64,000 nt of DNA from Mesostigma viride (lineage: Eukaryota > Streptophyta > Mesostigmatophyceae > Mesostigmatales > Mesostigmataceae), in the NCBI GenBank assembly GCA_009746045.1, contig RPFO01000015.1, positions 2,443,498-2,507,497 on the forward strand. Direction: 5' to 3'. Below are positions 3,094 to 61,436 of this stretch, one piece after another. The first letter of the stretch is position 1. Each line of letters opens with the position of its first letter. The translations under genes were made by a program, and so were the position numbers. A model generated the notes under the pieces. It searched no databases. It was not told where the DNA came from and worked only from the letters and a program-made list of their open reading frames with translations.

Positions 3094-3158
<65 letters not shown>

Positions 3159-16476: not shown

Positions 16477-17230
16477 TGTTACAAATACAGGTAGTCGGAG
16501 GAAAGTTCCGATCAATATTGCTTGATTACATTTTCATTATCAATATTCCATAGCCAAGTCAAAAGACAAGAAGAGATAGTGAGAAAGTGTAGGGACAACA
16601 CTTTTCACTTCATTTAGCATGCAAGCGCCTGCAACTTTAACCGTTAGATCAAGATCTGACGATCTAGGTGTGGCGGCGCTTATGTGACATAAAGCTCTAC
16701 CCATTGACCACAAGATTCCTACCAGTTTATGGCACTAACTGTGGTCACCATAGAGTCCACATCTGACCACCCATACATGGGCTCTGATCTTGCTCGGTGC
16801 ATGACATCATTCTCATGCGCAATACAAACTTATGGCAGTAGCATATAATTCCATAAGACAAGTCCACATGTGCTTGCACATACAGGCATTGAGACACAAG
16901 TGTCGGCGCCCAACAAATAAATGGCGCGGCGCTATCAGTGATGACAAGCTACAAGTGACGCAACGTTGGCGTACTGGGACAAAGCCACAGTGCCTCCAAG
17001 GCAGCGCCGGAACGTACAAGTCGTGCGCGAAGCGCGGATTCTGCTACATAACATACGGTGACAGCATAAGCAATCCAAACCGTACCGCCGGTGCCAAACC
17101 AGCACCGGTACAACATCTCGTAGCACTTCACAATGATATAGTCCCGACCCAAAAACAATCACAACGGGTCTCGTGAAGTATGATCCGTACAGTATCTCGG
17201 ACCTGAAAAACTCAGCACCAAAGTCAGTCA

Positions 17231-23212: not shown

Positions 23213-24209
23213 ATGGCTCGTAGCCGTGCTGCGGCAAGCGCTGAGACTGACGCCATTGTCCTGACTGGACAGGACAAGAAGGAAATGAACAAATTAAAGC
23301 AGCACGAAGTTGGCAATGCGTTTGCTGCCCAAGCCGCTGCCACCCGGCAGCAAGGACCCGGAGAAGAAGGACTACTGCGACGGCCTGGGGTACTGGTACG
23401 CGAAGACAGTGAGTTTCCTGGACAACGACCACGTTGCTACGTTGCGATTCAGTGGACACGGCTCGTCGGGAATGCCGGCCGTCCGTGATTTGATCCGGAT
23501 TGCCCACGAGAAAAAGATGGAGTGGGCGGACTTTTACAGCCGTTTGAAGGAACTCCTTGTGCCCGAGGGCCTGCTCAAGTCGATCAAAGATATGATGCGG
23601 ATCCTCACTTTTGAGGTGTCGGGCGACCCGGTCCAGGCGACACTGGCATTCGAGAGGATGCTGGAAGACACTACGTTGACTTTTCCAGATGATTTCAGCG
23701 TCGTGCTTTTCCTGGGCAAGGCCCTCGCCAGTGGTGTGATTACTGACAGCAGTATCCAAGGCTTGGCTCCCGTCCTGACAAAGGAAAAGCTAGAAAGCAG
23801 GACTGCCAGCTTTACTGCCATCCGGGAGGCCTTCGCCCTCGGTGGCGCGGCACAGGAATTGGCGGGAAGGGGATCTGCCACCAAGCCCGCGGGAACAGCA
23901 AGCATCAGTGCTGTTTTTGGGGAGGGCGACAGACGCGAGAAGTGCCCGAGGTGCCAGGGCACTGGCCACAACCGTGACAGCTGCAATGCCAACAAGAATT
24001 TTCCTCTGTCGACCAATTAATTGTGTGGCAAATGCCACAAGCCAGGCCACAAGGCCAGGTTTTGCAAGTCCGGCAGGCAGCCGGACAAGAAAAACGATGC
24101 CACTGCCGACGAGGGTAGGGCCGGGCCCATTAGGAGGCCTCGTCGGAGCATGCGCTGGGTTCGTCCCCAGCAGGCGCAGCAGGCGCACCAGGCGCAGCAG
24201 GGAAACTAG
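23213..24209 (+). pseudogene. Gag of element 2 (frameshift and in-frame stop)
   Basis: ATG 23,213 (MARSRAAASAETDAIVLTG) opens the frame. A frame change near 23,350-23,370 moves it to the frame of KDPEKKDYCDGLGYWYAKTV, a helical capsid-like region. Two CCHC knuckles follow: CPRCQGTGHNRDSC (about 23,943) and CGKCHKPGHKARFC (about 24,024). An in-frame TAA (24,018-24,020) lies between them, and TAG 24,207-24,209 ends the frame. The second knuckle being intact beyond the TAA suggests a recent stop or some stop bypass. Confidence 0.75.
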
Positions 24210-24214
24210 ACGGC

Positions 24215-26347: not shown

Positions 26348-27776
26348 GTGGACATTTCAGATGAAGCCCGTCCCGGGCACTGATAGGAAAGTAGAATTTG
26401 CTAGACCTGTAGTGCTAGAGTTTTCTGGATCTTCTGACATGCCCCCTTCGGCCTTGACTGCGCCAGGTTTAAACAAAGATACATGGCGCATGGTAGTGTG
26501 CTTTCATCTAGGGCGCTTGAATAGGGGTATGCCACATGGGTCCGCTGTGCTAGATTTTTCAAAGGCTTACCTCCACGGGGATGCCAATGAAAGTGCTCGG
26601 CTATGGGATGGAACCACACCCCTCTATGTTAGGACACCCAAAATCTGGGAGCCTCTTGTAGGAAAGAAGTTTATGCGGTTGATAAAGGCGGTTGATGGGA
26701 CCGTGGCTGGTCCACGGGCTTGGCGCCTGAGCCTAGAGCGCCTTCTCCTTGACACAGCTCGCATGGTGTACAGTGACTTGGACCCCTCCTTGTTTGTGGG
26801 CGTCTGGAAGGGCGAGCTGGTGTTTGTGTTCGTGCATGCGGATGACTGTGATTGCTTTGGCCCGCGTGAATGGATTGCCTGGTTCCATAGCATTGTGCAT
26901 GCCAGGTACCCTGTGGGCAAGCTTATTTTCCGTGAGCCGGGCAAGGTGGTTCAGTTCATGGGCATGGACACTGTCATGGATCACGATGAGCACGGCAAGT
27001 GGGCGATGTTGCTTCAGCCCAAGGGCAGCTATGTGCAGGATTTGGTTAAGGAGGTGATGAGCAGCAGTGGGCCGCTTCTTGCGTCTGAGTGTGGGACATT
27101 GCGTGGCAAGCTTAATTGGCTGGCCTGCACCACTAGCCCTGATTTGGCTGTCCTTAGCCGACTGCCTGACAATGTACTGTGCCTTATTGACCGTGCGGTG
27201 ATTGTGCAGTACCTCCTGGCCTCACCCGGGTTGATGTTACAAGGTGTAGACTGGGATAAGCCCGTGGAGCTTGTGTCTTATTGCGACAGTTCCCTAGATG
27301 CCCGCGTGCTCACCAAGATGCGTGGTAGGTGCGCTGCTGTCACTACCATTTGCAACGCTGACCAACCCACGATGTCTTCCATCTTTGCATGGTATTCCCG
27401 TTTGCACCGCCGCGTGTATGTGGGATCCGACACCGCTGAGGCGCGCGCATACTGCGAGGCTGCGAGCGAGCTGTCCTACTTCCACGCGCTCATTTGCTGG
27501 ATTCTCGCGGTGGGCGGCACCACTCCGCATCTCCGTCGCGTGATACGCACGGACAGCCAGGCGGTTGTTGATTTCATTGAGAACCCTTATGCCCGCACAC
27601 GGGACTTGGACTTCCTCAGGGTCAAGGAGTTCTCTGATTGTGTCAGTACCCAGCATGTGCCGGGCGAAAGGAACTACTCCGATGCCCTTACTAAACTGTA
27701 TAGCTCAGCTAAGGCACAGTACCCGCTTCTGCGACACACGATGAATAGGCTATCACTGGGTCAGTCTTCGCACTAG
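26345..27776 (+). CDS. Reverse transcriptase-RNase H of element 2
   Basis: The RT frame is open from upstream of 26,345 and intact to TAG 27,774. A likely product begins at WTFQMKPV or the ATG at 26,361. Motifs: FARPVVLEFSG, LDFSKAYLHGDA (26,550), AVDGTVAGPRAWRLS (26,690), catalytic VHADDCDCFG (about 26,836), LNWLACTTSPDLAVLSRL (27,110). RNase H: SYCDSSLDAR (27,280), FAWYSRLHRRVYVGSDTAEARAY, RTDSQAVVDFIENPYA (27,545) and VPGERNYSDALTKLY (27,658). This is copia-type RT-RH with HADD instead of YVDD. It lies in a different frame from the integrase-protease ORF and overlaps or abuts its stop. Confidence 0.87.
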
Positions 27777-34371: not shown

Positions 34372-35096
34372 AGACGTCCATTTTGAGTGGACTGACAAGC
34401 CAGAGGGCTCCGTCAAGCGCTCAGCCCAGCAGATAAACGAGGGCGACGGCACTACCGAGACCTACGAGGAAGGCAGAGAGCTGATCTGCATATCCCTCGT
34501 GAGGTGACTCACGAGTACGATCGTTACGGCCGAGGCGAGCAGAACGAGCTTGTCGGCGGCGGTAAGCGGTGGGTACGCGATCTTGCTTGGCATCGCAACC
34601 CAGGTGAGACACAACATCCAGTCGAACGCAAGGAGACGGGCGACCTGTGACCTGCGTGCTGGGAGAGTTTAACCCAGACCTCCAGATTGTCGCAGAGGCA
34701 GCAGCAGCCACATCGGTTGCTGAGGGTGTTGAGCAGCGTCCAGACCGTGAGGAGGGGCAGGCGAGTGCAAGCCAGGAGGCGGCCTCGTCTGGAGTAAGTG
34801 CGTGAGCCTGAGTGGGTTCCAGCAGCCATATCTGCGTGTGTTTCTGTGTATTCTATAATGCTTCGTAACACGCGCGGGGCGGCAGCGGGAGCGGGGCGGG
34901 AGCGGGGGATGGCGGGGTGAGGCAAGGGCAGACACGGGAGGCCCCGCCAACGTCGTGCCAGAGGGACAGGCAATCCCAACGGCAGAGGGCGTCAATGGCA
35001 GGAGGGCATCCAACCGGAAGAGGAAAGAGGTGGCACAAGGGGAGGAGCGTGCAGGGTGGCCAACCGACGGCGTGGTGCTGACGGGGGAGGGCCAGA
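34372..35096 (+). other. Linker between leader ORF and gag of element 3
   Basis: No single frame stays open, but short coding-like runs occur in changing frames (for example GGKRWVRDLAWHRNPGE near 34,560, and EGQAIPTAEGVNGRRASNRK near 34,957). This suggests a decayed part of the gag leader. Confidence 0.35.
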
Positions 35097-36199
35097 ATGA
35101 TGCTGAACGTCAAGCACCTGGTAAGAGACCATGTGTGCCTGGTCTGGTGTTCCTGCAGCTATGTTCCTGCGCCATTAGCACCTGTAGGAGCTGCTGTCAT
35201 TGGCAGTGACCCTCGTGCTTTGCCTGGGACTAGACCTCATATGAGTGCTGTGGCTGTGATGAATGGCCAGAAGCCTCTCAAGCCTCCTGTGGGACAGGAA
35301 GAGCTAGACAAGTGGTTGGAGGATATGGAGCTAGTTTCATGCTCTGTAGATCCCACTGTCAACCTTGTGCAGGTATTCCACACATCCACGACTAATAGGG
35401 ATTCAGTGAGCGTGAGGGACAAGGCTAGGCAAGCTGTCAAGGACAAGCTGACTTGGTCTCAGTTCCTAGAGGGCCTACGTCAGGAGTTTCTGATAAGGTA
35501 CTCAACCTCACTAATCACTATAAGCTCAGCTATGATACCTTTGAGATCAAGGGCACAATAGCTGAGGAGCTGCAGCGGCTCACACGCATCAGGGAGAAGG
35601 GGGCCAAGCATGGCTTCAATCTGACTGATAGAGCAGTGGCAGATTACTTCCTGGATCGCATGGGGCTGAGTGTGGATGGGAGAAATGCAGCTAGGATGTT
35701 TGCTGATCAGACAGATGGGACGTGGCCAGCCTTGCAAAAGGTTATTTTCAATATCCGTCCATCTGACAATGCTGCTTGCAAGGCAATCCAGGTGACTGGT
35801 GCCCCTTCAGCCTCCGCTCATCAGGTCCATGGTGACGCCCCTGGGCAGGGTGCTCAGGGAGAAACCAGACCTAGTAGGCGTCAGAGGGCTAACAGGCGCA
35901 GGCAGAATGGTAACCAGGGTGGCAAGGGCCAGCAGCAGGGATCCAAAGGCAAGGGTCAGCAGCAGGCTGGTGGTCACCAGGGTGGTCAGCAGAACAAGGG
36001 TGGCCAAGGGCAAGGCAAGAGCCAGGGCCAGGGCACCCAGGCCAGTCAGAGCAGCCAGAACCAGGGTGGCCTGAAGAAGGCTGCTGCTGGGAAGGATGAC
36101 AAGTGCTTTGGATGTGGCAGGACGGGTCATTGGCGACGTGACTGCCCAGACCAGGCCAAGTCTGCTGGAGCAGGCTCTGGCCAGGTGGGTAAGCCATGA
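35097..36199 (+). pseudogene. Gag of element 3 (one frame change)
   Basis: The first part (35,200-35,490) reads ELDKWLEDMELVSCSVDPTV...LTWSQFLEGLRQEF. After a frame change near 35,490 it continues NHYKLSYDTFEIKGTIAEEL...TWPALQKVIFNI, a helical capsid-like core. A long Gln/Gly/Lys linker (35,870-36,080) and one CCHC knuckle CFGCGRTGHWRRDC (about 36,104) follow. The frame ends with TGA 36,197-36,199, followed by C, and is open again in the same frame in pol. Confidence 0.75.
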
Positions 36200-37430
36200 C
36201 TTGAGATGTTGTCCCCTGTAAATAGTCAATCACCCCTAGTGGGACGAACAGTTGTACATAGTAATGGGGGTGTCCCTCTTGTGCAGCAGCAAGGGGTTGG
36301 GAATGATGAGGTGCTTCCACTCAATGATTGCAATAACGCTGCTGCAGCAGTGGAATTCCCTGTGCCTGTGGCAGGTGCAGGGTCTCCAGTTGTTGGGGTT
36401 GACTCTGGGAGTCAAGCCGCCAGACTGGAAGGACCTGCAGCTTCTGTGGGAACCGGGGCTGGCTCTGGGAGCCGAGCTACCTTGGAGGAGGTCCCTGGAG
36501 CAAGAGAACAGCAGGTGGGTCGTGCTATCCCAAGCACACAGTCTTTGTCACGTTCCTCTCTGTGCAGCCAGGCTGACAGGGGGTTGAGCTATGCTCAGGC
36601 TGGAAACACTCTACACCATATCTTTGGCCACTCTAAGCAGGCAGAGATGTTTGCTTGGAAGATTGGCAAGGAGCCTTTGCTAGAGGCCTGCAGTGCAGCT
36701 GCTCAGAATTGTGTCTGTCAGGAGAATGCTGTTCGCCTCCCACAGTCCCATGCCAGAGAACCTGCTAGAGAGCGGGGGGATATCCAGGTGGACATCCAAC
36801 ACATCAGGGGCATGTATCTGTTGGTGGGGGTGGATAGGTTTAGCAGATATAGGTTGCTGACCATTCTTCCTGGAATGCAGGAGCATCAGCTGTTGATGGG
36901 TCTCCAGTCTTTGTTGCCAGGCTTTGGGGTGTACACCAAGGTGCAAGCTGACTTGCAGTTTGACTGCTTGATCAAGCTGGCTGACCAGCTTCCTTGTAAG
37001 TTGGTAGTGGTCCCTAGGGAATGCCATGGGCAGCAGGGAGCTGTAGAGAGATCTATACGTGAAGTAAAAACAGTGGTGCTAGCAGCTAGGAGTGTGCCTG
37101 TTGTGGCATCAGCTCTAGAGAAAGCAGCTTGGTGTAAGGGGATTGAGGAGCAGCTTAACCACAGGGTAACCTATTACTATGATGGTGTGGCAGTCTCTCC
37201 CCTGGCATTGCAGTTTGGTATGCTATCACAGGACGTGGTGGCAGCCTGCCTGAAGAAGGCAGACAGGGTGTTTTCCAGATTGAGGCGTAAGGACAAGGGT
37301 TGGAAAATGCTGAGGCCCCAGGTGGGACTGAGGGTCAGGATGTGGAAGGAACCGTCATTACCAGGCAAGCGTGGCAAGTGGCAAGATGGGCAGGTAACCC
37401 ATGTTGAGAAGCTAACCATTCTTGTCTGGT
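36200..37430 (+). pseudogene. Integrase region of element 3 (same frame as gag)
   Basis: Open in the gag frame after the single UGA; the next ATG is at 36,206. The zinc motif is LHHIFGHSKQ...CVC (36,610-36,720). Core acidic residues lie in VDIQHIRGMY (36,788), VQADLQFDC (36,948) and QQGAVERSIRE (37,030), then an SH3-like tail (VGLRVRMWKEP...GKWQDGQV). Near 37,425 the sense sequence moves to another frame (YRLSWAHVKERRP). The middle of the core carries the D-x-QF-x-C wording shared with elements A and 2. Confidence 0.78.
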
Positions 37431-38397
37431 GGCTTTGGAGAGTAATCCCAAGCACGTGTACAGGCTATCCTGGGCTCACGTCAAGGAGAGAAGGCCAACT
37501 GCAATCTGGCCTGAAGACGGCCCTGATCCTCCCTTGGAGGGAGATGAGCAGGATGAGAGCCAGGCAGCAGATGCTAACCCACCATGCTTGGATTATGGTC
37601 TGTCCTGGATGGATGAGGGTGAGCAGGAGTCTGCTGAGACGTCTGTCACAAGGCCAGAGGTGGCCAGGGCTGCACCACAGTCCAGGGGGCTGCTTATGGC
37701 GGACATCATTCGAGCTCTGCAGAACAGCAAGCGTGATCCCAAGGTATCTAAGCTCACGGGATGGGGGTCATGTGGGGCACCAGCACTAGAAGTGGATACC
37801 AACTCACAGGTGTCCATTCTAAGGGTAGAGGATGCTGCAGGCTTGCAGTGGTCATCCCCTAGCTGCCTAGCTGTGTCTGATTTCTCTGGGAATGTGTCCA
37901 TGAAGATCTTGGGAGAAGTGAGTGTGCCTATCCTGGGGGTGCCCACCACGTTCAGTGTGGTTGAAGGGTATCAGGGGCCTGCCATTCTAGGTCAGAACTT
38001 CTTGTGCTTACCAGGGGTGAGGATATCCTCTGAGGAGCTAGCATTAGAAGGGCAGGGCCGCCTTCCCTTGCAGAGATATCGCTACTCCCAGGGTCTTAGT
38101 GTGGCTGTAAGGGCTGTGAGGGGTCTAGAGGCAGAGGGTCCTGATACAAAGGAGCCCATTGCTGGGGACCTGCTGATCCTCCCTACTACGTTTGACCCAC
38201 GTGAGTTGGGTGTGCAGAGGTACCAGATCCCAGGAACGAGTCCTGTACCTTGGCGCAAGCTAGTGGAGATGATGCAAAGCCCCAAGATGGCTAAGGCATG
38301 GACTCTTGGCTTTGTTGCTTCTGGGCATGAGTGGATAGTTGCCAACTGTGCAGAGCCTGTGGATGTCCTCCCTGAGGATCACCAGCTGCTCAGTTGA
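37429..38397 (+). CDS. Protease-like domain and linker of element 3
   Basis: The frame from 37,429 holds the end of the integrase tail (HVYRLSWAHVKERRPTAIWP) and an acidic linker. The protease-like motif ALEVDTNSQVSIL (37,784-37,822) follows, with VSMKILGEVSVPILGVP and the C-terminal AILGQNFLCLPGV (37,980-38,020). The linker to RT contains PRELGVQRYQIPGTSPVPW and ends with EPVDVLPEDHQLLS, then TGA 38,395-38,397. The TGA overlaps the ATG of the RT frame (TGATG). DTN replaces the DTG/DSG of retropepsins; activity is uncertain. Confidence 0.72.
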   Translation: MALESNPKHVYRLSWAHVKERRPTAIWPEDGPDPPLEGDEQDESQAADANPPCLDYGLSWMDEGEQESAETSVTRPEVARAAPQSRGLLMADIIRALQNSKRDPKVSKLTGWGSCGAPALEVDTNSQVSILRVEDAAGLQWSSPSCLAVSDFSGNVSMKILGEVSVPILGVPTTFSVVEGYQGPAILGQNFLCLPGVRISSEELALEGQGRLPLQRYRYSQGLSVAVRAVRGLEAEGPDTKEPIAGDLLILPTTFDPRELGVQRYQIPGTSPVPWRKLVEMMQSPKMAKAWTLGFVASGHEWIVANCAEPVDVLPEDHQLLS

Positions 38398-39790
38398 TGT
38401 TTGTCCTCAAGCTCAAGGAGGTAGATGGCGTGCAGGTGCCACATGTTAGACCAGTTGTGACTGAGTACCATGGCACTGGACAGTTAGCAGATGAGGAGCT
38501 TTACACACCAGGGATGCTGCATGATACATGGAGGATTTTGTTGTGCATTTATTTGTCTTTTCTGCAGAAGGGGATACCCTATAGCTCTGTGTTGGTAGAT
38601 TTCAAGAGGGCTTTTCTTAAGGGTGATCAGCAGGAAGCACAGGATACTTGGCGCACAATACCCCCTTTCTTTGTTAAGGTGCCTGCAGTGTGGAGGGCAG
38701 AGCTGAAGACGAGGTATTTGAGGATTCTCAAAGGCGTGGAAGGCCTTAGATCGAGTCCCATCATCTGGAGGAAGAGCTTGGAGAAGTACCTCAGGTCTGT
38801 CTGTGGTCTCTCAGTCTCTCCAGTTGATCCTTGTCTGTTTCAGGGTAGCTATGAGGGGCTGCCAGCGTTTGCCTCCCTGCATGGTGATGATCTGCATCTC
38901 CTGGGCCATCCCACTTGGCAAGAGTTGACTCTGGCCAGGATCCAGAAACGGTTTGAACTGGGTAAGATCCAGTACATGGTTGAGAATGAGCCCATGGTGT
39001 TTTGTGGAATGCAGGCGACCTTGGTCCATCAGCAGGGTACATGGTCCATCCAGCTGGAGGGTGGTAAGGATTATCCTCAGCAGATCATAGATGCCTTGCA
39101 GGAGCCCATCACCCAGGCCAGATGTGCAACAATACGAGGTATGTTGGCATGGCTGGCCAGCATTTGTGCTCCTGACCTGTTGGTACTGAGTCGGTTGACC
39201 GATTCCCAACTGGTTGAGGTGGGTGCTGAGAGAGTGGTAGAGGCTGTTCGCATGTCTCCCCCTCTCATGCTGGGTCCTTTGGATTTGTACAGGCCTTTTG
39301 ACATGATGCTCTATGTGGACAGTTCTATGGATAGTAGGAAGGTCACAGAGGTCAGGGGCCGTGCAGCAGCATTAATATCCCTGGTGCAGGAACAGTCCTC
39401 TCTGGTCTGCTGGTACAGTCGGTTGCAAACAGGGTAACTCCCAGCAGTGACATTGCTGAGTGCAGGGCAATCTGTGAAGGGCTTCATACTGCTCTTTACT
39501 TGAGGGAGCTATTTTACCAGCTATGTCAAGTGGCTTCCTGTCGGTTGCAGATGCACACACTGGTAAGAACTGACAGCATGGGCATGGTGCAGTTTGTGCA
39601 CAGGCAGCTGGCCAGGAGCAGGGACCTTGATTATTTGTTGCTCAAGGAAATGTCTTGCTTAGCTAACATTGAACATGTGGCTGGCGTGGACAACCCTGCA
39701 GATGCTCTCACCAAGCTGGAGGAGAAGGCTGAGCTGCAATACCCTTTGCTTCGTGGGCTCATGGCCTCCAAGGGGGGAGGGCCAGAGTAG
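38397..39790 (+). pseudogene. Reverse transcriptase-RNase H of element 3 (one frame change)
   Basis: RT from ATG 38,397: MFVLKLKEVDGVQV, VRPVVTEYHGTG, LVDFKRAFLKGDQQ (38,597), GVEGLRSSPIIWRKSL (38,737), catalytic LHGDDLHLLG (about 38,877), MLAWLASICAPDLLVLSRL (39,140). RNase H starts MLYVDSSMDSRKV (39,306) and WYSRLQ (39,412). The sense frame then changes near 39,435 and continues SDIAECRAICEG, VRTDSMGMVQFVH, DLDYLLLKEMSC and GVDNPADALTKLEEK, to TAG 39,788. The order is copia-type, with HGDD for YVDD. Confidence 0.85.
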
Positions 39791-49606: not shown

Positions 49607-49868
49607 TAGAAAAGTTTCTTTAATCGGCACTGAACGGAAGTAAATACATCCACAAGATAAGGAATCGCTGCTGCAAGGCATTGCTGCTGCAACGAGCCAG
49701 GGTAACCCCAGGGCCCTGGGATGATCAGTCGCGGAGCATAGGGGCAAGCTAGCTTAGCTAGCTCGGGGTAGGCTGGAGAACAGGGCTGTCATACACACAC
49801 CACACGTTATAAATAACCCACATCATAAAGCGCACAAACCGTACGCCCCTCATCATCACACAACGCAC

Positions 49869-49980
49869 CTCGCTGACAAACAGGCCGTGGAAACCGTAGG
49901 GCACTCGATGGGGCAGCACCACGCGCGCCACCGGCGTTGGCGACATGGTCTTGGCATCAAACACGTCAAACTCTGACTTG
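49869..49980 (-). CDS. CCD1: CCD1-like exon with fourth iron-ligand histidine
   Basis: Acceptor gttgccag at 49,981. Encodes [20 protein letters not shown] and [16 protein letters not shown]; the His of GFHG is the fourth ligand. A donor-like GAG/gtgcgt at 49,869 suggests one more short exon. Otherwise the frame runs on to a stop at 49,758 with 37 unrelated residues. Confidence 0.9.
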
Positions 49981-52900
49981 CTGGCAACACCAGGGTCCCC
50001 ACCATGGACCAGACCACATGTGAAGGTGATGACGGGACCGGGGTCAAAATAAAAACATTAAAACACGTGACTGCGTCACATGGGTCTTCCAAAGCCAAAA
50101 GGAACCGTCCCCCCCTATCGTACACAACGAGGAGGGAGAGCGCCGCAGGCCTGTAGATTCTCTCACTGCCTGAGGGGGGGGGGCCACCAAGCGCTCTCTC
50201 TGCATCAACGCACGACTGTGGGTGGTACCTAAGACCTGCACATACCACCAGGGACCACAGTTTGCATCTTAAAACCTATCGAGGGCTGGATGGATATTGA
50301 TATGGAATGTGTATGGGACATTGCAACAGCATAATCGCAAGCCAACCGCTTAGGGTTGCCTTGCGAAGCCTTAGAAGTCGCTGGGTTTCGATGTTGTAGG
50401 GTTGCTTGTCCCATGCATCAAAGCTGGGCTCCATCAAGCGTTGCCTTGCGAAGCCTTAGGAGTCCAAGGAATGAATGGGGGAAACAGGCTTCTGGGAAAC
50501 AGGATTCCTACCAGCAAAACGGAAGATTCTAGTAAGAAGCACGCAGTCATACAAGGCGGCCTTCCCACACAGCATTCAGACGACGACACTCCAACAGGGT
50601 AATCAGATGCCTTCTTCATCGTGAGAATACCTCAAGTTTCTGACCACAAAACATTGTCCTAAACTGTGACACCGTACCGCACGCTCCCACATCCTGGCGA
50701 ACAATGTTCTGATTACTGGCGCACGCGGCACAAGTACTCCATTTCCGATAGAGGCATAGTACAGTACATTTTAATCCCCTTAGCTCCTTGTCAAACATCT
50801 TGACTAGAAAAGCTGAATGTGATGGGGCTTGACTTCCAAAGCGGCAGATTTCCTACTCGCACAAAGGGTCAGCCCGCCATATCCACATTCCTTCTTTCAC
50901 AAAGTCATTATAAATTATGCTCAGTTGTGACCAAAGCACACTAAATCATTCAACGAGCAGTTATGTCATGTTCTCCTCGAACATTAACATGCTCCTATGG
51001 ATTGGCGTAAAACAAGTGCACTCTAAAGCACTCTGACTCGCACAACTCTCGGCTCACCCCGATGTGTCTTGCACAAGCCATGTACTAATAAACTCAATCA
51101 TTCCTAATCCCCTATTCCTACGCCCTATTCGCATACTCGGGCTAAGTGCGCTCACCCCATGTTCTCGTCGTGCACAAATCACACTCTCATTTGCGGACCG
51201 CTATTATAATAATTATTGTTATTATTATTATCATTACTATTATTGCATAGTATGGCATAACAGCTGAGAGCGCTCACCCGGTTGTCTCGTCGTGCACAAA
51301 CACGAGCAGGAAGCCGTCGTCCTCGCTCATCCCGCCCGCCCTCGGCACAAACACCGGCTCTCCCCCATACCGCTGCTCCCCATAGATGATCTTGCCGACC
51401 TCAGACGCGTCCTCGCCGGGCAAGTCCACATCGACCTTGACGATGCCCTCGATGCGGGGGCACGACATGTCGCGCGTGCCAAGGATGCCCGCGTAGACAA
51501 ACCGCGACTTGCGGCCAATCAGCGTATCCTTCACGCGGGGGAATTCCATGTGGGTCTTGGTCAGCCGGCGCTGCGTGACTGTGCCGGTGCTCAGCTGGAG
51601 CGTGTACTCAATGCTGGAGAAAGCAAACGAGACGAAGGGAGGGGGAGGAAGAGAAGGGGAGGAAGGGGAGGAAGGGGAGGAAGGGGAGGAAGGGGAGGAA
51701 GGGGAGGAAGGGGAGGAAGGGGAGGAAGGGGAGGAAGGGGAGGAAGGGGAGGAAGGGGAGGAAGGGGAGGAAGGGGAGGAAGGGGAGGAAGGGGAGGAAG
51801 GGGAGGAAGGGGAGGAAGGGGAGGAAGGGGAGGAAGGGGAGGAAGGGGAGGAAGGGGAGGAAGGGGAGGAAGGGGAGGAAGGGAGGAAGGGGAGGAAGGG
51901 AAGGAAGGGGAGGAAGGGGAGGATGGGAGGATGGGGAGGATGGGGAGGAAGGGGAGGAAGGGGAGGAAGGGGAGGAAGGGGAGGAAGGGGAGGAAGGGGA
52001 GGAAGGGGAGGAAGGGGAGGAAGGGGAGGAAGGGGAGGAAGGGGAGGAAGGGGAGGAAGGGGAGGAAGGGGAGGAAGGGGAGGAAGGGGAGGAAGGGGAG
52101 GAAGGGGAGGAAGGGAGGAGGAAGGGGAGGAAGGGGAGGAAGGGGAGGAAGGGGAGGAAGGGGAGGAGGGGGAGGAAGAGGAGGAAGGGGAGGAAGGGGA
52201 GGAAGGGGAGGTAGGGGAGGAAGGGGAGGAAGGGAAGGAAGGGGAGGAAAGAGGGGGGAGGAGGCGGGAACGTTTATTCAACCCTGGAGGTTTCAATGTC
52301 ACAAAAAGGCTTGTGGTGTCCATGCCGTCAGGTTGGCACACACAAGGTCGATTACATTTTACCTTTCCCTGTTCTTATCATTCTGGCCAGAATCTTATTC
52401 GTCCCTTGAATGTCATCATGCCATCCTTAAACAGGCATTCTCGGCGCGGCTCGTTCGGTGAGGACACTAACGTGGGGAGCGGGCGGAGGGGCCAGGCCAG
52501 CCAATGGCAGGTCGTCCCTTCATGGCATGGGAGCACATAGCCACGTTAGCCCAAAAGAAAAACACTCTAAAAGTGTCTATTAACGAAAACAGGTTCAACA
52601 AACTCTGCAGCTTGAGATCAAATGCTATGTATTGGCAACATACCAATTCCTACTTGCAGCAGTTGGGTGAAAACGAAGACCTTGTCACATGCGATGGCAG
52701 AGGGCGGCGTGACGAGTGTGTGATATACCAAATGACTTACACAGAGGCCGGCGTGACTAGTGTGTGATATACCAAACTGACTTACACAGAGGCCGGCGTG
52801 ACTAGTGGGTGATATACCAAACTGACTTACACAGAGGCCAGCGTGACTAGTGTGTGATATAGCAAAATGACTTACATAGAGGCCGGCGTGTTCGCGGTAT

Positions 52901-55900
52901 GGTTGAGATTCATGGATGGGAATGCACACGCGACCAGCTTGACAATATTATCGCCCTCCTCCCATGCGTTGGCTGGTGACGGACGTCATGGAACACACAC
53001 AAACAATATAATGTCATCGCAATTAAAACTTTGACTTTTATACTATTATTTTGTTTTCACTGGCTTTGAGCAGCACTCCCACATTGTCGTTACCGCCAAT
53101 CAATCCGCAAAAACAAAAATGTCGCATGCACGTGAACAAAATATTGCATCGCATGGACTGGAACCGGATCCATGCAGGATTGCCGAGGCATAGTTGGCAT
53201 GCTCCAATAGACAGGACATAATCGTAGAATAAGAAACGAGCGCAACAAGGGTGGGTGTGGCACACGCGATCCACCACCCAGAGACGACCCACCGTCCAGA
53301 GATGACCCATCATCCAGCGGGACGCACGTGGACAGATGCTGGAAAGCAGCCGAGCCCAGCAGGAAATGCTAAGGTATGTGTGACCAGTATGCACTATGCC
53401 CGTGGTGACACTTAAAATCATGACGCATCAATACGCTGTCACAACTACACAACTAAAACTTTCAGCAGGAGATAATAATTTTCAGCATTCGGCATGCTCG
53501 ACAGTACACTGAATGCATAACCCCCCAATGAGCTGACAACATTTAAGTGTCCATGCATAATTGCAGATCCCCTTTTCTATTTGACTTCTTTGTAGATGGT
53601 GAAGGTCTGGCAGTCTGCCTTTGAGCTGACTCTTCACCACGCAGGATGACAGAGGCCGCCATTAAAAGAAAGAAAGAAAGAAAGAAATTTCTGTAAGGCA
53701 GCTCATGATAGTTAAGGCTAGTTCAGGATGTCAGTACAGCCCGGTGAGGGCACCTGGGCAATACCAATAGACAAGGGCAAATCCAGAGAAACTAGGGTAA
53801 TGCCGGGTAATGGTACAGCTGGAAATGGCCCCCCAAACGCCACCAATTGTAACTAATTTCGCTCCTACCTCCGAGTAGGGCACATCCAGGGATTACGTTG
53901 ATGTCAGTTACCCGGTCCCTTTCAAGAGAATCGGAGCGCATGTTGCGCTCACCCAGCATGAGGCGCGAGGCAGCGGAGGGCCTCGCCCGCGGGATACACT
54001 GGGAGGCTTTTCATTAAATTATAAGGCTTTGAGTAGGCTTTTTATTGACTGCGGAACTCCAGGGTAACCAACATAACACTCACAAACTGGTTATGTCTTC
54101 CCCAATACTAATCCTTCTCAGGCCGCCGTGGCCTTATATTTGTCATCACCTCCGGCTCTACAACCTAGCAGGACAGCTATCTTCTTATTTAAGAAAACTA
54201 TGTTCAGCAAACGACGATCCTGATACTCAGATGTAGCATGCTGCACTGTGTGCAAGGCCTAGCACGCCTAACCTGTGAAGAAGATGCTTTCTATTTGAGA
54301 TGAATATACCGCCACCTGTGTAAGGATACTTTTTATTTGAAATAGAAAACGCCGCACCTGTGTGGATGATGCTTTCTATTTGATGAGATGAACACATGGC
54401 ACCATCCATGTTGATGATCATTTCTATATGAAATAGAACACGCCGCCGCACCTGTGTGGAAGATCCAGCACGCCTCCTTGAGCATGAACCACTTGATCTC
54501 GGATTCATCGCGCGCGTAGCGAGGGAGCAGGCCAAAGCGAGAGGGGAGCGACTTGTCGAACACAAAGGGGAGCTTGCCCTCCGCCACCATCACCTGGCAG
54601 GTCGGGGCCAATAGGGCATCACCAACGGGACAACGCAGACAGGAAAAAATGAGCTCAACATGATGGTGAAATGTTTTCCGAAATTCCAATCATTTCAAGC
54701 ACCAGAACAGATCGTCATTGAGGTCAAAACAGAAAAAATTCAAAACTGACTGGGTATTGAAACACCCGTTTAGTAACATTCAAAAGCGTCGCGTCAGGAA
54801 AGCAAACCAAAGAGGGAAAATGTTCGGGGGAAGGGGGGCCCGCCGGAGGGGGGGACTGGACGGCAGAATTTGTGTAGGCAATGGACACCGTTCGGCGGGC
54901 AGATTGAAAACAATTAGTCACTTCTACAACTTTCACTGAACATGCGGTCATCTCCTTTACCCTACATAAAGTTGTATGTGAGGAGCAACCAACAAAGCGG
55001 ATCATGTCACTATTTTATACCACTGGTTCTAACCACTAAATAACACTGGTTCTGACCACTAAATAACACTGGTTCTAACCACCAAATAGCCCTGGTTCTG
55101 ACCACCTGTCCCTGCCAGCAAAACATGTGGACGCTGCCTGGGCATCGCAAACGTTAGAAAAATATATTGCTTGACCTCTCATCCTAAAAACAAGCATTCA
55201 TTCGAGCAACGATCAGCAGCCCCACTACGCCACATGGCAAGCTGACCCCAAGCTGGGGTATCACGTCACCCTCGTATAGCGTGTGATGTCACCAGGTTGA
55301 CACAAACAGCAGTAGCAGGCTCGCACCCATGTGACACGTATAGCAGGCTTGCAGCGGCCGGCCAGGAACCTGCGAGCCACCCTCGTCTAGGTTCAAAAAG
55401 ATCCCTATTCCAGTTTCAAAAAGATCCCTCGTCCAGGTTCAAAAAGATCCCTATTCCAGTTTCAAAAAGATCCCTATTCCAGTTCCAAAAAGATCCCTCG
55501 TTCAGGTTCCAATAGATCCCTTCCAGTTTCAAAAGATGCCTTCCAGTTTCAAAAAGATCCCTATTCCACTTTCAAAAAGATCCCTATTCCAGTTTCAAAA
55601 ACTCGAGTCTTGGAGAGTATAAAAAAGCCTCAACCTGCCAAGGGAGCACAGTGGGCATGATGCCCGCGCCTTGAGCCGCAGCTGTGCAAGGAACAATCAG
55701 CCCCTTATTGACCCACGCCTTCAGCACTCCTAATTCCTGTACTCGATGCCGTGTGCCCCGATTAGTCTCAGAAAATAACCACCGAAGGCGGTTGTGAAAC
55801 AACATCCGAAAACGTTGTGGGGGCTACGGGTCTTCCCACTCTGTAAGGGGTTTGCTTCCGTTATCCTACGGAGGAGTGCTTAGCTGGAAACATGCCTAGG

Positions 55901-58900
55901 TCACCCATGCACCGCCAACGCATGCGTACGTTCCCCCCACGCACCTTGCCGTCGAACACGAGGGGCATGTCCAGGAAGATGGCAAACCGCTTTGTGATGG
56001 CAAAGTCGTGCATCATGATGGGCTTGGGGATCGTGATGGGCACGCCGCAGAACTGGAGCTTCGCGTCCTTACTCGCCACGCCGTACTTGATGTACGGCGG
56101 CTTCATCGCCATGTTGTAGCCAAAGAAGAAGAGCTCGCCTGCTCGCCATGTGGGGTGGGGTGGGGAGAAGAAAAGGTGTGTGTGTGGGGGGGGAGAGGTG
56201 AGGGGGAAATGGCAGGCGAAGACAAGTGGCAGAGTGAGAGAGAAAGAATATTAGGGAGGGAATAGAGCTACTAGCCTGCGACTTGAGAGTGCATTTGTGT
56301 GAGAGGGTGGATCGGAAAAGGGTCAGGGTTCCTGGCTCATAGTTTAAGGTGAACAGTTTAGGGTGTAGGGCTACAGGGGTTCCTATTCACCCTCCGTCCA
56401 CAGGCCATCAAACACGTTGTGGTGGGGTTGTCGGCACGCGATATAATAGAACCAGATGTAAGAGAGCCAGATATAAGAGAACCAGAGCGCCATGGCAGGC
56501 CGAAGCAGGGCCACTGATATCTCATGTAGATAACGAAGGTTAGTAATGGAAGACAAGGAAGATCCCAGCATGTACACGGCTGGCACCCCAAAGTGGATAT
56601 ACAGACAAGCAAGGGGCGCAGGTTCGCAAGAATAAAGCAGTGTTTCTTGAGATGTCAAGCCGCAGTGGTTATTTACTTAATAGTTACAATCATAACAACA
56701 CCCTAAATAGTGATGATAAGAACACATTCGGTAGTGATGATAAGTTCACAATCAAAAAGCGACGATCAGAACACCTTCATCTTGGGGGTGCTACTGTAGC
56801 CGCAACATTCGGTCCTATTATGATGACTGGATAGACCAGTGATCAGTGATGATTAGCACAGAAGCTTATAAGTGGGCGCCTCGGCAATGACAAGTGTATC
56901 CCCGTCCACCTTGGGATACCATGACTGCAAAAACAACATACTAGTAATCGATGGGAGCTCATATGAAAGATTTCTTCACTGCAAATCGTAGTATAAAAGT
57001 ATCTTCAATACTTTCAACAGGACCCACCTGTCTCTTCGCCCACCTGAGGGTATCCTCGCATTAACAACTGCATCCTAGTAGCAACAAACTAGTAACAGAT
57101 CGCGGGAACAACCAAATCAAATCATATGCTGTGGATCGTGCCCACCTGTCTCCGCGTCCACCTTGGGGTAGCAGTAACAATGAGCAATAGATAGTTAGAA
57201 ATAGATCGCATCATCATGTCAGATGATGCCCACCTGTCTCCGCGTCCACCTTGGGGTGCGCGGTCACGTTGTGCTTGAGCTGGCCGCCATAACTCTGCAG
57301 GCCCAGCGTCTCCAGCTCCCCGTCCATCAGCACCCGCAACGCATCTGGGCAGGGTGAGGCGCGGACACAGGAAGAATCGATGATGAGAAGTCACGATTCA
57401 GACAGGAGTGAGAAGCCTTTATCACCCCATCCATCATGAGACACACCTCGTCTGGGCACTGGGGGTGGGACATAACTTGCATGTGACGGCATGCGACCCC
57501 TAGCAAATGCAACCCAGGGGGGTTGGAGACGTCTTGCGATAGAACGGTTAGATAAAGGGCAAGAGATCAGAAATGGGAAACGCATCTCTCCTTTGCCATA
57601 CGACATTGCGTCACAGCCGCAGTGCGCAACATGGTGCCCCCACGACAAGGCATGCAAGTCATGGGCATTCCCACAAAGGCATCAAGGCAAAGTGTACAAC
57701 CATGTCACCAGGAAAACATGTCACAGTCCAGCCCTCCCCAAATGCCCTTAAGGGTGTGATGGCACAATTCGGCTACCCTTTAGCCCTTTCTTCAGCGATG
57801 CAGGGATGAAAAAACAAACGCTTCAATCTTAAACGAAATAGACGGCAAAGGGGAAAAAACGCTATTCATCAAACTGCACAAATGAAGGACAACATCCCAG
57901 CACTCAGCTCAGCGCTTGCAACAATTGTATTGCGGTCCAGTGGGCGGTCAGGGGACTAACCAGGGAGTAAGTGGACTGAGAGAGCGTAAGGGGGCATCAG
58001 CCCGGCATGCAGTTTGCAAGAAAATAAACTCACACAGTAGCAGGCCAAGCCCCAGAAAGCAACCAAGTCAATGCAGGTTGTTAGAGATATGTTTCAGCCA
58101 GCTGCCAAGGCAATCAGGCATGCCGCAACGATAAAAAAAATTAGCAAGGCAAAGAATGCCGTTCGTGATGTGCGACAAAACTAGAAATGCGAAGACTGCT
58201 GCCAATGGCGTAGAAAGGTGTGAAAAATCCAACGCTTACCGCTATGATAGACAATGGTTGCCAATAATTGTAGAAATCACTCAAAGCAAGCAGGAAGAAG
58301 CAATTACAAGGCATGTTGCACTTCTTGTTGCCCTAACATTTTCTGTTGTATCCCACCCCCCTTTATGCTCCCCTTTCATGCCAAAACTAGTTTCAACTAA
58401 AAGCTTCAGGGGGTTAAGTAGACAAAACAGGCATGCATCCCTTGCCACTTACAGGGGAGGTCGCCCTCATTCAGCGCCAGCAGCGTTTTTCCGTGGAAGA
58501 TGAGCGCTGTGTTGGCTGTGGCGCGCAATCAGCATGCAGTCGGAGCAATGGCCCCAATCGTTCAAGTGCGGCAGTGACAACGGGGGTTTAGTAAGGCGAG
58601 CCAGTCAGGCAGATTTCTACCTCATAGCTAGGCCAAAAATCCTTTGTGTGAAAGGTGATCTCTCTGGTCTGCATAACTACGAATCGGACGCCATGTACTA
58701 GGACAATGCCCTGCAGTACAAGACGCAGGGTACATGCGCCAGTATGGCATGTGGCTGTGGACAGCCTCCATCCACATCAGGAGAGGACCATGCTGGGCGT
58801 GTGCCGGCAGAAAGCCAGGTGACAGCAACCATCGACGGGATAAAGACTATCCCAGCTGAAGCACGGGGAAGCAAGCATGATTACTGTATTCCATATGGGG

Positions 58901-61436
58901 ATACGATCACAAGCACGATTACTGTATCCAATGCAGTACACCCTCCGCAGTGGTAGTTTTAATTCAGTTCAGCCAAAAGGCCCTTCGGAATTAGACATTA
59001 GCGTTTTATTGGTTGAAAGTGCTACTGTACCCGCCCAATTAATTAATTATTAGTTTGTTTGTTTGGTTACCGAACAACCGTTGAAGTGGCTGCGAAATTT
59101 AATAATTCTTTGTTTGTTGACTTTGTTCTGTAATAACCCAGCCGGATGCACTGCTCTTACGGCTAGGAAAAGCACATTTTTCAGCCAGAAATCATATTTC
59201 TTTGTTTGTTAGCGAGAAAGCTGCACACGTGACAGTAAAATAATATTTATTTACACTTTCTTTGTTTGTTTGGTAGCTTCAAAAACTACAGTTCACTACA
59301 CTCGGGAATTAGTTAATTAAAATTCTTTTGTTTTATTTATCGTTTGCAGCTGGTCGGCGCCCAGCCTCATAATTATTTAGTAAAACTACCAATGCGGAGG
59401 GTGTACTTGGGAAAGACAAAGCAAAGTGGCTGCGCCACGAAAAGGGGCAAGAGCATGATCATGCCAGGACAACTATTCCAGCAGATCATTCTTACTTGAC
59501 AAGCACAAGTACTCGGAAGCACACCCTACGCCACCGCAAATGGAAGGAAGAGCGACAAGAGTGCCAAGAGTGCCAAGAGTGCCAAGAGTGCCAAGAGTGC
59601 CAAGAGTGCCAAGAGTGCAAGAGTGCCAAGAGTGACAACGAAAAATGAAGGTAACTCAGCCAGGGTGGCGTGCCCAGAATACCACACATTCATCCATGGA
59701 GCTTCTCAGAGCGAACTATGGCCTACTATACAAGCCTCATGCACTTCAGTCCTAGCATACATTCCTTGTGCACCATGGGCCTACAAAGCAAGCCTCATGC
59801 ACTTAAGGCCTACTATAACTCTATCAAAGGCTTACTATATACAAGCCCCGCCTCTAACAACCCGCAATCCTGCCGCTCGCGCCCTGACAATCTTTAACGC
59901 GACTGAAAGTAAGCCACGCGCCCAGGCACCAGCGCGCTCGGGTGTCCCAGAAAGTTTTGGTTTTGCCAGCATAAGTGAACATTTTGGAACCATACTGGAT
60001 TCGTGCGCACGGGCCAGCACTTGTGTACATTGCGCTGGTCGGCCTTGGTCGCTGTGCCAGTTACTGCACAGGGCCAGCACTTGTGGATGTTGCGCTGATA
60101 AGCCTTGGTCACTGTGCCAGTTCTTGGCCACTGCCAGCTCCAACACAGTGCCACTAGTTATTCCCTCACCCGTTCCTTCGCTGCCCTGGATGACCCCCAG
60201 CTTCCTCTTTGCATTGGTAAGCAGCATGCGCAGGATGGCGGAGAAGCCGGCAAGGTCGCCCATCTGGCACACGCGCGTGCGCCGACCGCCGGAGTAGTAG
60301 CCCAATGAGTTGCCCACATAGTTGCCCAATTAATTGCTCAAGTAGCTGCCCAAATAATAGTCCAAATTATTGCCCAAGGAGTTGCCCATGAAGGAGTTGC
60401 CAGGGACGAGGAACAGGGGTTTGTCGATTGGGCGATGGCAGGGGAGGAGGGAACAAAAGGTATTGAATACCCTTTGCGGGGGGGGGGGGGACGCGTAATC
60501 GACAAACCGAATACTGAATTTAAGAACCAAATACCGATTTAACAAACCAAAATGCCAAAGTGACACACCAAATGTCTGTTTACTTAAAAACTAAATGCCT
60601 AAAATGCCTAGTAAAAAAGCACATGTCTAATTAACCAGCTAATTGCCTAACCAAAAGCCAAATGCCTAACGAACAAAACAAATTATATGGGTCACCGAGC
60701 ATGAATCCTTGATGAAGAATGAAGGGCTGCTGTGGCGTCTCGGGGGAATGGAATTGGATGCTTGAGCAAGATCTGAAGCACCACAAAGCCAAAACGCACT
60801 TTCTTGTAGCTGGCTCAACTCGGAATAAATGACACACGCAGGCAGCGCCAGACACGTAACGAATCCATGCCTTTGCCATCTCATCCCACATTCGTAAAAC
60901 CAGGCTGAGGGCATGAAGGGGACCACCCTGGTGGGGTCCAAACCTGCTCAGCTCCACATGCCACCGTCTAAGCAGGATGGCCGGAAGCGCACGCACTACA
61001 GACAATAGTAATAGTAGTAGTGGTGGTAAAGACATGCATGCCTAGCGTGGCAGAGACAAAACCATACTCGAAAGATGATGGCACCACAGAGCGAAAACAA
61101 GGGAATACGCCTGCACATGCTGAGTGTATGCGCAACGCATTAGAACCCTGCAACGCTCTCTCGGCTATTTTTTTTTAAATTATATTATTATTATTATTGT
61201 AAATTTACTACTACCATCATTATTGCTTCATCGTCCAGGCGCGCGTATCGGAGTGTGCACGGGTCCGCCCGCCGACGCCTCCTGTAGGGGGTATCAATGC
61301 GCCTGCCTTCATACTACACATCCTATCAGAATATACACACTCCTACGAAAGTAGTAGTTGCATGACAATTGAGAACCAGGGCCCACCCGCGCCTGGCGCT
61401 TACTGTAGTGTACACGGGCTCCCCAGCCTCCTCCTC
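49869..61436 (-). CDS. CCD1: Carotenoid cleavage dioxygenase, CCD1-like (nine exons found, N-terminus missing)
   Basis: Exons on the minus strand: 61,436-61,404; 60,263-60,170; 58,515-58,453; 57,344-57,234; 56,138-55,945; 54,593-54,452; 52,972-52,876; 51,613-51,278; 49,980-49,869. All junctions are AG/GT and all phases join. The ~394 codons follow the family to near its C-terminus: [91 protein letters not shown]. The four candidate iron-ligand histidines are in TAHPK, MMHDF, IFHTA and GFHGL. The family splits carotenoids or apocarotenoids oxidatively at 9,10-type double bonds, with non-haem iron in a beta-propeller; CCD1 types are usually cytosolic. The exon for the conserved WFDGDGM region and the start codon were not found. 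Introns carry unusual repeats. Confidence 0.93.
51051..51178 (-). repeat. Repeated exon-end/5' splice site copies in the intron after the 336-nt exon
   Basis: The junction ttgtgcacgacgaga...gtgagcgc at 51,271-51,300 recurs at 51,149-51,178 (close) and 51,051-51,079 (decayed: ttgtgcaagacacat...gtgagcc). Spacings are 122 and 98 bp. Each keeps a GGTGAGC-type donor. Confidence 0.85.
51278..51613 (-). CDS. CCD1: CCD1-like exon: beta-propeller C-terminal region
   Basis: 336 nt, acceptor tttctccag, donor ACCGG/gtgagc. Encodes [50 protein letters not shown] and [17 protein letters not shown]. The exon lies directly after a very long pyrimidine tract in the intron. Confidence 0.95.
51640..52262. repeat. 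Minisatellite (GGGGAGGAA)n, ~620 bp, purine strand plus
   Basis: More than 60 copies of a 9-bp unit with few interruptions, inside a CCD1-like intron. On the gene strand it is an uninterrupted C/T tract that ends about 25-50 nt before the 3' splice site tttctccag. Long Gly/Glu or Pro/Ser frames through it are artefacts of the repeat. Confidence 0.95.
52700..52871 (-). repeat. Tandem 46-bp copies of exon end plus 5' splice site
   Basis: Gene-strand unit ggcctctgtgtaagtcagtt plus tggtatatcacacactagtc and cacgcc. Copies sit at 52,822, 52,778 and 52,732 next to the true junction at 52,868, plus a remnant at about 52,702 that lost the donor. Three extra copies keep TGTGTAAGT. Confidence 0.92.
52876..52972 (-). 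CDS. CCD1: CCD1-like exon: [18 protein letters not shown]
   Basis: 97 nt, acceptor gtcaccag, donor CTCTAT/gtaagt. Encodes [18 protein letters not shown] and [14 protein letters not shown], matching the family NAWEE motif. The donor end is repeated four times downstream with a period of about 46 bp. Confidence 0.92.
53667..53692. repeat. (GAAA)n microsatellite
   Basis: Six tandem aaag units in the intron after the 142-nt exon. Confidence 0.9.
54268..54415 (-). repeat. Decaying copies of exon end plus 5' splice site, ~40-50 bp apart
   Basis: On the gene strand the junction atcttccacacaggtgcggc (54,447-54,466) is followed by similar junctions at about 54,396 (no donor), 54,349 (atccacacaggtgcggc), 54,309 (cttacacaggtggc) and 54,268 (cttcttcacaggtta). 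Each is followed by a tttctattt(g/c)-like word. Confidence 0.85.
54452..54593 (-). CDS. CCD1: CCD1-like exon with third iron-ligand histidine
   Basis: 142 nt, acceptor cctgccag, donor CACACAG/gtgcgg. Encodes [36 protein letters not shown] and CWIFHT. The His of IFHT is the third ligand. The donor end is repeated four times downstream in decaying form. Confidence 0.95.
55016..55105. repeat. Short tandem repeat, ~23-bp unit
   Basis: cactggttctgaccactaaataa-type units occur four times in the intron after the 194-nt exon. Confidence 0.85.
55385..55600. repeat. Minisatellite, ~25-bp unit
   Basis: About nine units of the type ttcaaaaagatccctattcc with agtt joints, in the same intron. Confidence 0.9.
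55945..56138 (-). CDS. CCD1: CCD1-like exon with second iron-ligand histidine
   Basis: 194 nt, acceptor ggcgagcag, donor GGCAAG/gtgcgt. Encodes [40 protein letters not shown] and DMPLVFDGK. His in MMHDF is the second ligand. Confidence 0.95.
56894..57170 (-). repeat. Copies of exon end plus 5' splice site in the intron after the 111-nt exon
   Basis: The junction aaggtggacgcggagacagg followed by tgggc (57,228-57,257) recurs identically over 30 bp at 57,140-57,170, with changes at 57,022-57,053 (gaagagacaggtggg), and in decayed form without donor at 56,895-56,918. Spacings are about 88, 118 and 127 bp. Confidence 0.9.
57234..57344 (-). CDS. CCD1: CCD1-like exon with first iron-ligand histidine
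   Basis: 111 nt, acceptor cctgcccag, donor GAGACAG/gtgggc. Encodes [32 protein letters not shown]. The His of TAHPK is the expected first iron ligand. Its 3' end with donor is repeated downstream at 57,140, 57,022 and 56,895. Confidence 0.93.
58453..58515 (-). CDS. CCD1: CCD1-like exon: [21 protein letters not shown]
   Basis: 63 nt, acceptor gcgccacag, donor CCCCT/gtaagt. Completes GTANTAL across the splice and gives [11 protein letters not shown] with the first two bases of the next exon. Confidence 0.9.
59556..59636. repeat. Minisatellite, 10-bp unit (agtgccaaga)n
   Basis: About eight units in the intron after the 94-nt exon. Confidence 0.92.
60009..60128. repeat. 60-bp tandem duplication
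   Basis: gggccagcacttgtgtacat and the following sequence to about 60 bp occurs twice in a row, with about 10 changes, just downstream of the 94-nt exon in the gene direction. It does not include the splice site. Confidence 0.85.
60170..60263 (-). CDS. CCD1: CCD1-like exon: MGDLAGF...GVIQGSEGT
   Basis: 94 nt after gtgtgccag, donor ACGG/gtgagg, phase 0 to 1. Encodes [20 protein letters not shown] and [11 protein letters not shown], the helix before the conserved GTANTAL motif. Confidence 0.85.
60297..60395. repeat. Short degenerate repeats of (a)gttgcccaa
   Basis: About eight variants of a 12-15 bp unit lie just upstream of the 94-nt exon in the gene direction. Confidence 0.8.
61247..61290 (-). 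pseudogene. Decayed duplicate of the 33-nt exon with its 3' splice site
   Basis: On the gene strand, ccccctacag is followed by GAGGCGTCGGCGGGCGG and CCCGTGCACACTCCGATACG. This matches the true exon with acceptor, but the donor gtaag has become gatacg. Distance to the real exon is about 155 bp. Confidence 0.7.
61404..61436 (-). CDS. CCD1: CCD1-like exon (33 nt): [11 protein letters not shown]
   Basis: A micro-exon between ccccctacag and gtaagcg. It is phase 0 on both sides and joins [11 protein letters not shown] to MGDLAGF, matching the acidic segment before the G-D-L motif in the family. It is short and therefore less certain than the others. A decayed copy of the whole exon lies at 61,247-61,290. 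Confidence 0.65.

Follow-up and report, generated by a model that had tools for sequence, protein, structure and literature searches.

Copies of exon ends and their 5' splice sites in introns of a CCD1-like gene and of other genes of Mesostigma viride

Introduction

Introner elements are families that spread to many sites. The gene of one interferon-induced transcript, which we take to be IFI6/6-16, is a different case: it reportedly carries a minisatellite of 12-bp (base pair) units in this one gene, and the downstream splice donors are said to be used. In a title cited in PMC2572611, multiple splice donors of an interferon-induced transcript are said to be supplied by a minisatellite. Tandem repeats are enriched near intron ends, most of all in two green algae, Chlamydomonas and Volvox, according to passages of PMC3887541, and passages of PMC3443670 describe intron gain through tandem genomic duplication of AGGT. 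Here we analyze a stretch of 64,000 nucleotides (nt) of Mesostigma viride (contig RPFO01000015.1, positions 2,443,498 to 2,507,497; contig C1469 in our numbering of the 440-Mb genome), referred to as the window, in which four introns of a CCD1-like carotenoid dioxygenase gene carry copies of the preceding exon end together with its 5' splice site (donor).

The original prediction, made from the letters of the window, regarded such donor-anchored tandem growth as not described before. This is too strong, given the minisatellite precedent for donors and the repeats near intron ends in the two green algae as presented in parts of PMC3887541. Full-text literature, a body in which subscription journals are mostly uncovered, yielded no account in which exon-tail copies follow a large proportion of donors.

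Results

Exon-end copies in four introns of the host gene

The host gene was modeled on the minus strand with nine exons (Z and A to H) and eight GT..AG introns in a single open frame. Its protein matches PF03055, the RPE65/carotenoid oxygenase domain (E=4.1e-99), and its best three PDB matches are carotenoid 9,10-dioxygenases (E down to 2.7e-104). We classify the gene as CCD1-like, with 9,10 cleavage as its predicted activity. The introns are named after the exons that precede them.

For each intron, a probe consisting of the last 25 exon bases and 15 intron bases was locally aligned with the following intron and with 200 first-order Markov shuffles. The donor-copy scores of introns B, D, E, and F are 62, 37, 47, and 46, against shuffle maxima of 24, 24, 25, and 21, and none of the 200 shuffles reaches the observed values. 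The gene model and the shuffle tests thus bear out the copies of exon end and donor that had been proposed after positions 57,234, 54,452, 52,876, and 51,278. The other four modeled introns (Z, A, C, and G) score 14-15, which is the level of chance. No mirror pattern comparable to that of the donors was found at the eight acceptors of the gene: the top acceptor score is 22 in intron E when the whole intron is taken (reached by 3/200 shuffles) and 11 within 500 bases, and the remaining seven acceptors stay at chance level.

The copies are spaced by 88, 118, and 134 bp in intron B, by 94, 42, and 43 bp in intron D, by 45 bp in intron E, and by 122 and 98 bp in intron F (Table 1). The units of the intron E array, detected by Tandem Repeats Finder (TRF), agree at 93% matches. 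The resemblance between the first two units extends to their intron parts, at about 3, 6, and 6 standard deviations above shuffles for B, D, and E, and we therefore regard the units of these three introns as tandem duplications. For intron F, the corresponding value is 2 standard deviations in the window and 4 in the gene copy on C1801 (see below). In the later units of B and F, the recognizable shared part is the exon tail and the donor only. The decay with distance from the exon that had been suggested is not general: the match to the exon is best in the first copy at B, level at F, and slightly better in the later copies than in the first at E.

Two further observations concern intron E. 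The penultimate base of exon E (position 52877) is A in the window exon, where its intron copies as well as the exons of both other gene copies, on C1801 and C113, have G; the array therefore retains the older exon letter (an Ile versus Val codon). A 9-bp GAAGGGGAG array of 66 copies at 51653-52249 fills about half of the intron, and BLAST shows a far longer counterpart of about 2.2 kb on C1801.

Table 1 Features of the host gene and of the exon-end copies in its introns (window coordinates).
Feature	Position	Strand	Basis
CCD1-like gene	49758..60263	-	joined stop-free frame, GT..AG introns, PF03055, PDB match
Exon B, source of intron B copies	57234..57344	-	gene model
Intron B copy 1, exon tail 24/24 identical, donor at 57145	57146..57169	-	alignment
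Intron B copy 2 (19/24), donor GTGGGT at 57027	57028..57051	-	alignment
Intron B copy 3 (19/21), donor lost	56894..56915	-	alignment
Exon D, source of intron D copies	54452..54593	-	gene model
Intron D copies, donors at 54357, 54315, and 54272; fourth copy 25/29, ending near 54247	54247..54370	-	alignment
Exon E, source of intron E array	52876..52972	-	gene model
Intron E 45-bp tandem array, 4.3 copies, first unit across the exon E donor	52698..52890	-	TRF
Exon F, source of intron F copies	51278..51613	-	gene model
Intron F copy 1 (22/26), donor GTGAGC at 51155	51156..51181	-	alignment
Intron F copy 2 (16/19), donor GTGAGC at 51057	51058..51079	-	alignment

Survey of 60 introns in 11 genes

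The survey comprises the window gene, its copy on C113, seven CCT chaperonin genes, one MCM gene, and one gene for an acidic protein. The C1801 gene, which is too close to the window gene, and an uncertain gene that, from its sequence, we take to be exostosin-like were left aside. Gene models were built from DNA sequence only, by a small purpose-built gene finder guided by Pfam. The CCT regions were chosen from Pfam matches by size, with their introns unseen beforehand; seven loci were taken, and 37 of their 55 junctions were kept, the other 18 being discarded for unreliable gene models. The MCM model was corrected by hand: one predicted exon of 49 nt is in fact a copy of an exon tail and was removed. 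The cut-off score of 32 was fixed when the CCT genes were first scored, and 37 had been used earlier on the window.

With a score of at least 32, 20/60 donors and 3/60 acceptors are positive (paired p=1.1e-4), and without any CCD gene the counts are 13/44 and 3/44 (p=0.0065). The 18 discarded CCT junctions held two positive donors (scores 32 and 37) and one positive acceptor (37), and all 55 CCT junctions together give 12 donors and 2 acceptors at this cut-off. Interior anchors of the surveyed introns are positive in 10.5% of cases and predict about 4.7 positive donors; the observed 20 was reached in 0/20,000 draws, and the excess over interior anchors persists at a score of at least 40 (P=0.0045). 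Donor-like GTRNGY decoys inside the same introns are positive in 20/250 cases (8%). In an unselected 200 kb of the genome, 8/120 AG|GTRNGY words and 305/5710 random anchors (5.3%) are positive. At least one positive donor occurs in 10 of the 11 genes, and donor cases outnumber acceptor cases in nine genes, with the reverse in none. This sample scan supports the view that the repeats are anchored at real 5' splice sites above the rate of random intron positions.

When the 20 donor-positive introns were compared by BLAST, the only matches paired an intron of the window gene with the corresponding intron of the C113 gene. The unit sequences are thus private among these introns, in agreement with the proposal of one recurrent process in place of one spreading repeat. 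True tandem units are seen in young arrays, namely those of intron E, the acidic-protein gene (80-bp units at L026:9106-9303), and L030_4113. A clean tandem unit is absent from some positive introns, and in L029_3299, L032_3769, and C113_F the shared block is the splice-site neighborhood only, with unrelated spacers. The unselected 200 kb supplied the acidic-protein gene, whose protein has no Pfam match, and the exostosin-like gene; most predicted protein chains of that region resemble transposable-element proteins.

Shape of the copied segment

We recorded the share of the 60 introns with a copy at each position, using 30-base windows. On the donor side, no intron has a copy at -50 or farther into the exon (0/60), and 1/60 has one at -40; the share rises to 8% at -30 and 30% at -10, is 28% at the junction itself, and falls to 7% at +40. 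At the acceptor junction it is 5%. The exon part of the copies, measured by extension from the donor, has a median of 27 nt and stays under 41 nt in 17 of 21 copies. With uniform breakpoints given the spacing, about nine exon parts longer than 40 nt would be expected (P=0.0006 and 0.0017); in this edge test the nearest spacings were partly entered by hand, one exon part was capped, and a placeholder for MCM_4 was present in one version and removed in the other.

Three simulations of neutral growth were run as a first approximation, with uniform tandem duplication, unchanging exons, random sequence, one insertion-deletion rate, and the observed unit lengths. In these simulations, donors exceed interior positions by a factor of about 1.1-1.4 and the exon profile is broad, against an observed ratio of 3-4 and a sharp edge. 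Neutral growth alone therefore explains neither the excess nor the edge.

Gene copies on C1801 and C113

The C1801 gene is about 92-95% alike to the window gene in the alignable parts, introns included. The exons of the C113 gene are mostly 83-94% alike (75% for exon E), and its introns align only beside the exons. Copies are present at B, D, and F in both genes. At E, the window has 4.3 units, the C1801 gene fewer than two, and the C113 gene none, where donors Z and E each score 12. The difference of the E array among the three gene copies therefore indicates turnover of the arrays.

All three genes have the same exon B tail. In the window, copy 1 of intron B matches this tail at 24/24 positions; the matches are 20/24 in C1801 and 20/24 in C113, and the latter two share two of their differences from the exon. 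The simplest reading is that copy 1 of the window was overwritten by the exon after the split from C1801. Furthermore, the F copy of C113 matches the C113 exon tail at 23/26 positions and the window exon tail at 21/26. Taken from these alignments, re-copying of exon tails onto intron copies seems likely.

Introns B and F of the C1801 gene hold about 12 BLAST matches each, spaced by 34 bp in B and 84 bp in F, forming arrays where the window has a single unit. More carotenoid-oxygenase matches lie on the plus strand at C113:2557129-2565497, about 50 kb from the C113 gene copy.

Other features of the window

A satellite-like array at 12905-16484 consists of 241-bp units in nearly 15 copies with 83% matches. 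Long frames at 1138-6898, 24134-27776, and 35082-39790 look like candidate Copia-type retrotransposon proteins.

Discussion

A possible course of events at the donors

The account to which we give about an even chance is that tandem duplications spanning the exon-intron junction are ignored by splicing and kept recognizable by the constrained exon tail, perhaps with re-copying. Tandem duplications straddling the 5' exon-intron border would arise or survive at about one third of the tested introns, each copy being made up of ~10-40 nt from the exon end, in most cases the donor, and some intron sequence. The true exon and its donor would stay in place, and the copies would be pushed into the intron, which is thereby lengthened. 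Splicing would keep to the donor that lies outermost and adjoins the full exon; the protein would then be unchanged and the copies harmless. At acceptors, the copies lie upstream and the functional site is presumably likewise the outermost (MCM_2, MCM_3, and L032_7208), which suggests that the full exon, not the order of transcription, may decide the choice of site.

Copies with a longer exon piece are scarce, probably because they could be read as exon and were removed by selection. In vertebrate test systems, exons under about 50 nt are poorly recognized, and a filter near 40 nt would agree with this. Selection on the protein would hold the exon tail constant, so that its copies would lose their resemblance to it at a lower rate than the remainder of the unit. 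The exon may also overwrite a nearby copy now and then, by short-tract gene conversion or renewed duplication, and the copies would stay recognizable for this reason. The additional excess at donors points to either a mutational bias at exon ends or longer survival through re-copying.

A bolder form of this account, which we put forward only tentatively, takes the exon tails as master copies. A process linked to genuine 5' splice sites would write them again and again into the downstream intron, within its first few hundred bp, and mostly pieces under about 40 nt would survive, since longer ones would be read as exon.

Several results weigh against the account of junction-spanning duplications. 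The 3-4 fold donor excess over interior positions is unaccounted for by the neutral part of the model. Without the CCD genes, nine donors against three acceptors are positive at a score of at least 36 (p=0.073) and six against three at a score of at least 40 (p=0.25); the donor-acceptor contrast therefore depends on copies of moderate divergence. Nor is the asymmetry complete, since acceptor copies exist at L032_7208, MCM_2, and MCM_3; among these, introns 2 and 3 of the MCM gene L035 (C1106:4602700-4606800, minus strand) have copies of the exon start and 3' splice site upstream of the acceptor with scores of 45 and 52. Moreover, the acceptor count does not fall short of what interior anchors give (P=0.26 for three or fewer). 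Four of the 21 exon parts exceed 40 nt (41, 41, 50, and 55 nt), or three if one is capped at its spacing. The two shared differences in copy 1 of intron B are transitions and could be parallel changes. Finally, the exostosin-like gene has no positive site across its five predicted exons (donor scores 14-22).

Alternative explanations

Plain minisatellite growth at uniform positions, in which junction-straddling cases stay visible longer as the exon side does not change, would agree with young units that are ordinary tandem repeats and with the presence of repeats at interior intron anchors and in the unselected 200 kb. The simulations rejected such uniform neutral duplication as the sole cause, with their low donor/interior ratio and broad profile against the observed ratio and the cut-off by -50, and the donor-like decoys of the same introns reach 8% only; we hold the neutral explanation to be unlikely. 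Copying anchored at the donor, for example by template switching or RNA-templated repair, would insert splice-site copies of ~30-60 bp into the intron within a few hundred bp of the donor. This would suit the specificity for true donors, the confinement to about -35..+30, and the three introns (L029_3299, L032_3769, and C113_F) whose repeats have the splice-site block in common and not the spacers. The younger arrays are whole tandem units and not isolated short insertions, and we know of no intermediate, enzyme, or target-site mark of such a process, for none of which a search was made; we consider this explanation rather improbable. Functional spare or decoy donors, retained by selection to tune splicing or intron retention, could account for the better preservation of exon tail and donor in old copies with unalignable spacers, for the GT present in 18 of the 21 best copies, and for the copies that both other genes, on C1801 and C113, retain at B, D, and F. 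At the overall identity of the copies, 17.2 GT would be expected, so that GT is retained no better than the rest of the copy and there is no sign of copies being kept as donors. Donorless copies exist (C113 F and MCM_3), the copy number at E varies among the three genes, and use of a downstream donor would add a stop (B, E, and F) or shift the frame (D). The supply of spare donors that the original prediction had considered is thus unsupported, and we regard a selected function of this kind as quite doubtful.

The copies might also be remnants of intron birth through AGGT tandem duplication or introner-like insertion, the former being the same type of event, a GT-containing tandem duplication, as described in part of PMC3443670. 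AG exon ends are not enriched (12/20 donor-positive introns versus 24/40 others), exons E and F lack an AG end, and intron E is present in gene copies without the array. The downstream exons C, E, F, and G start with GCGAGC, CCAACG, CATTGA, and CAAGTC, without a copied intron start, and each of the introns compared has its own unit sequence. On the exon starts and the AG ends, intron gain of the AGGT type was rejected, and an origin in intron birth is in our view very improbable. Assembly errors in long-read data had been named among what would refute the observation, and repeats are typical sites of assembly or sequencing error. The two gene copies were assembled separately and have repeats at the same exons with differences of their own, which makes assembly error so unlikely that we give an artefact almost no weight. 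Chance similarity was rejected as well, on the 200 shuffles for introns B, D, E, and F.

Implications

If the pattern holds genome-wide, it would be a common route of intron lengthening and turnover, for which only isolated precedents exist to our knowledge. The arrays make testable how the spliceosome chooses one donor among several near-identical ones within ~200 nt, and the short and sharp exon part may provide a measurable estimate of the exon context that a donor needs. The gene copies permit dating of the re-copying of exon tails into introns. Should the tentative master-copy account be true, these introns would amount to a natural mutational scan for the minimum of exon context that the spliceosome recognizes.

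Comparison with known systems

Like introners, the copies described here multiply intron sequence across the genome, and they differ in that each of the 20 donor-positive introns compared has a unit of its own. The tandem duplication of AGGT likewise makes a second GT-containing junction; according to parts of PMC3443670, it creates a new intron within an exon, whereas here an existing intron is lengthened and the coding sequence is unchanged. Chlamydomonas and Volvox share the concentration of tandem repeats at intron ends, with units of 1-50 bp in a U-shaped distribution over both intron ends; the passages of PMC3887541 concerned are silent on copied exon tails and on a difference between donors and acceptors. 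The likeness to the IFI6 type lies in an array that begins at the exon end and runs across the donor, so that donor-like copies come to lie in the intron, and intron E and the acidic-protein gene have units that start within the exon and include the donor in this way. In contrast to that type, the feature described here involves about one third of the tested introns, with spacings of mostly 37-175 bp and units private to each intron.

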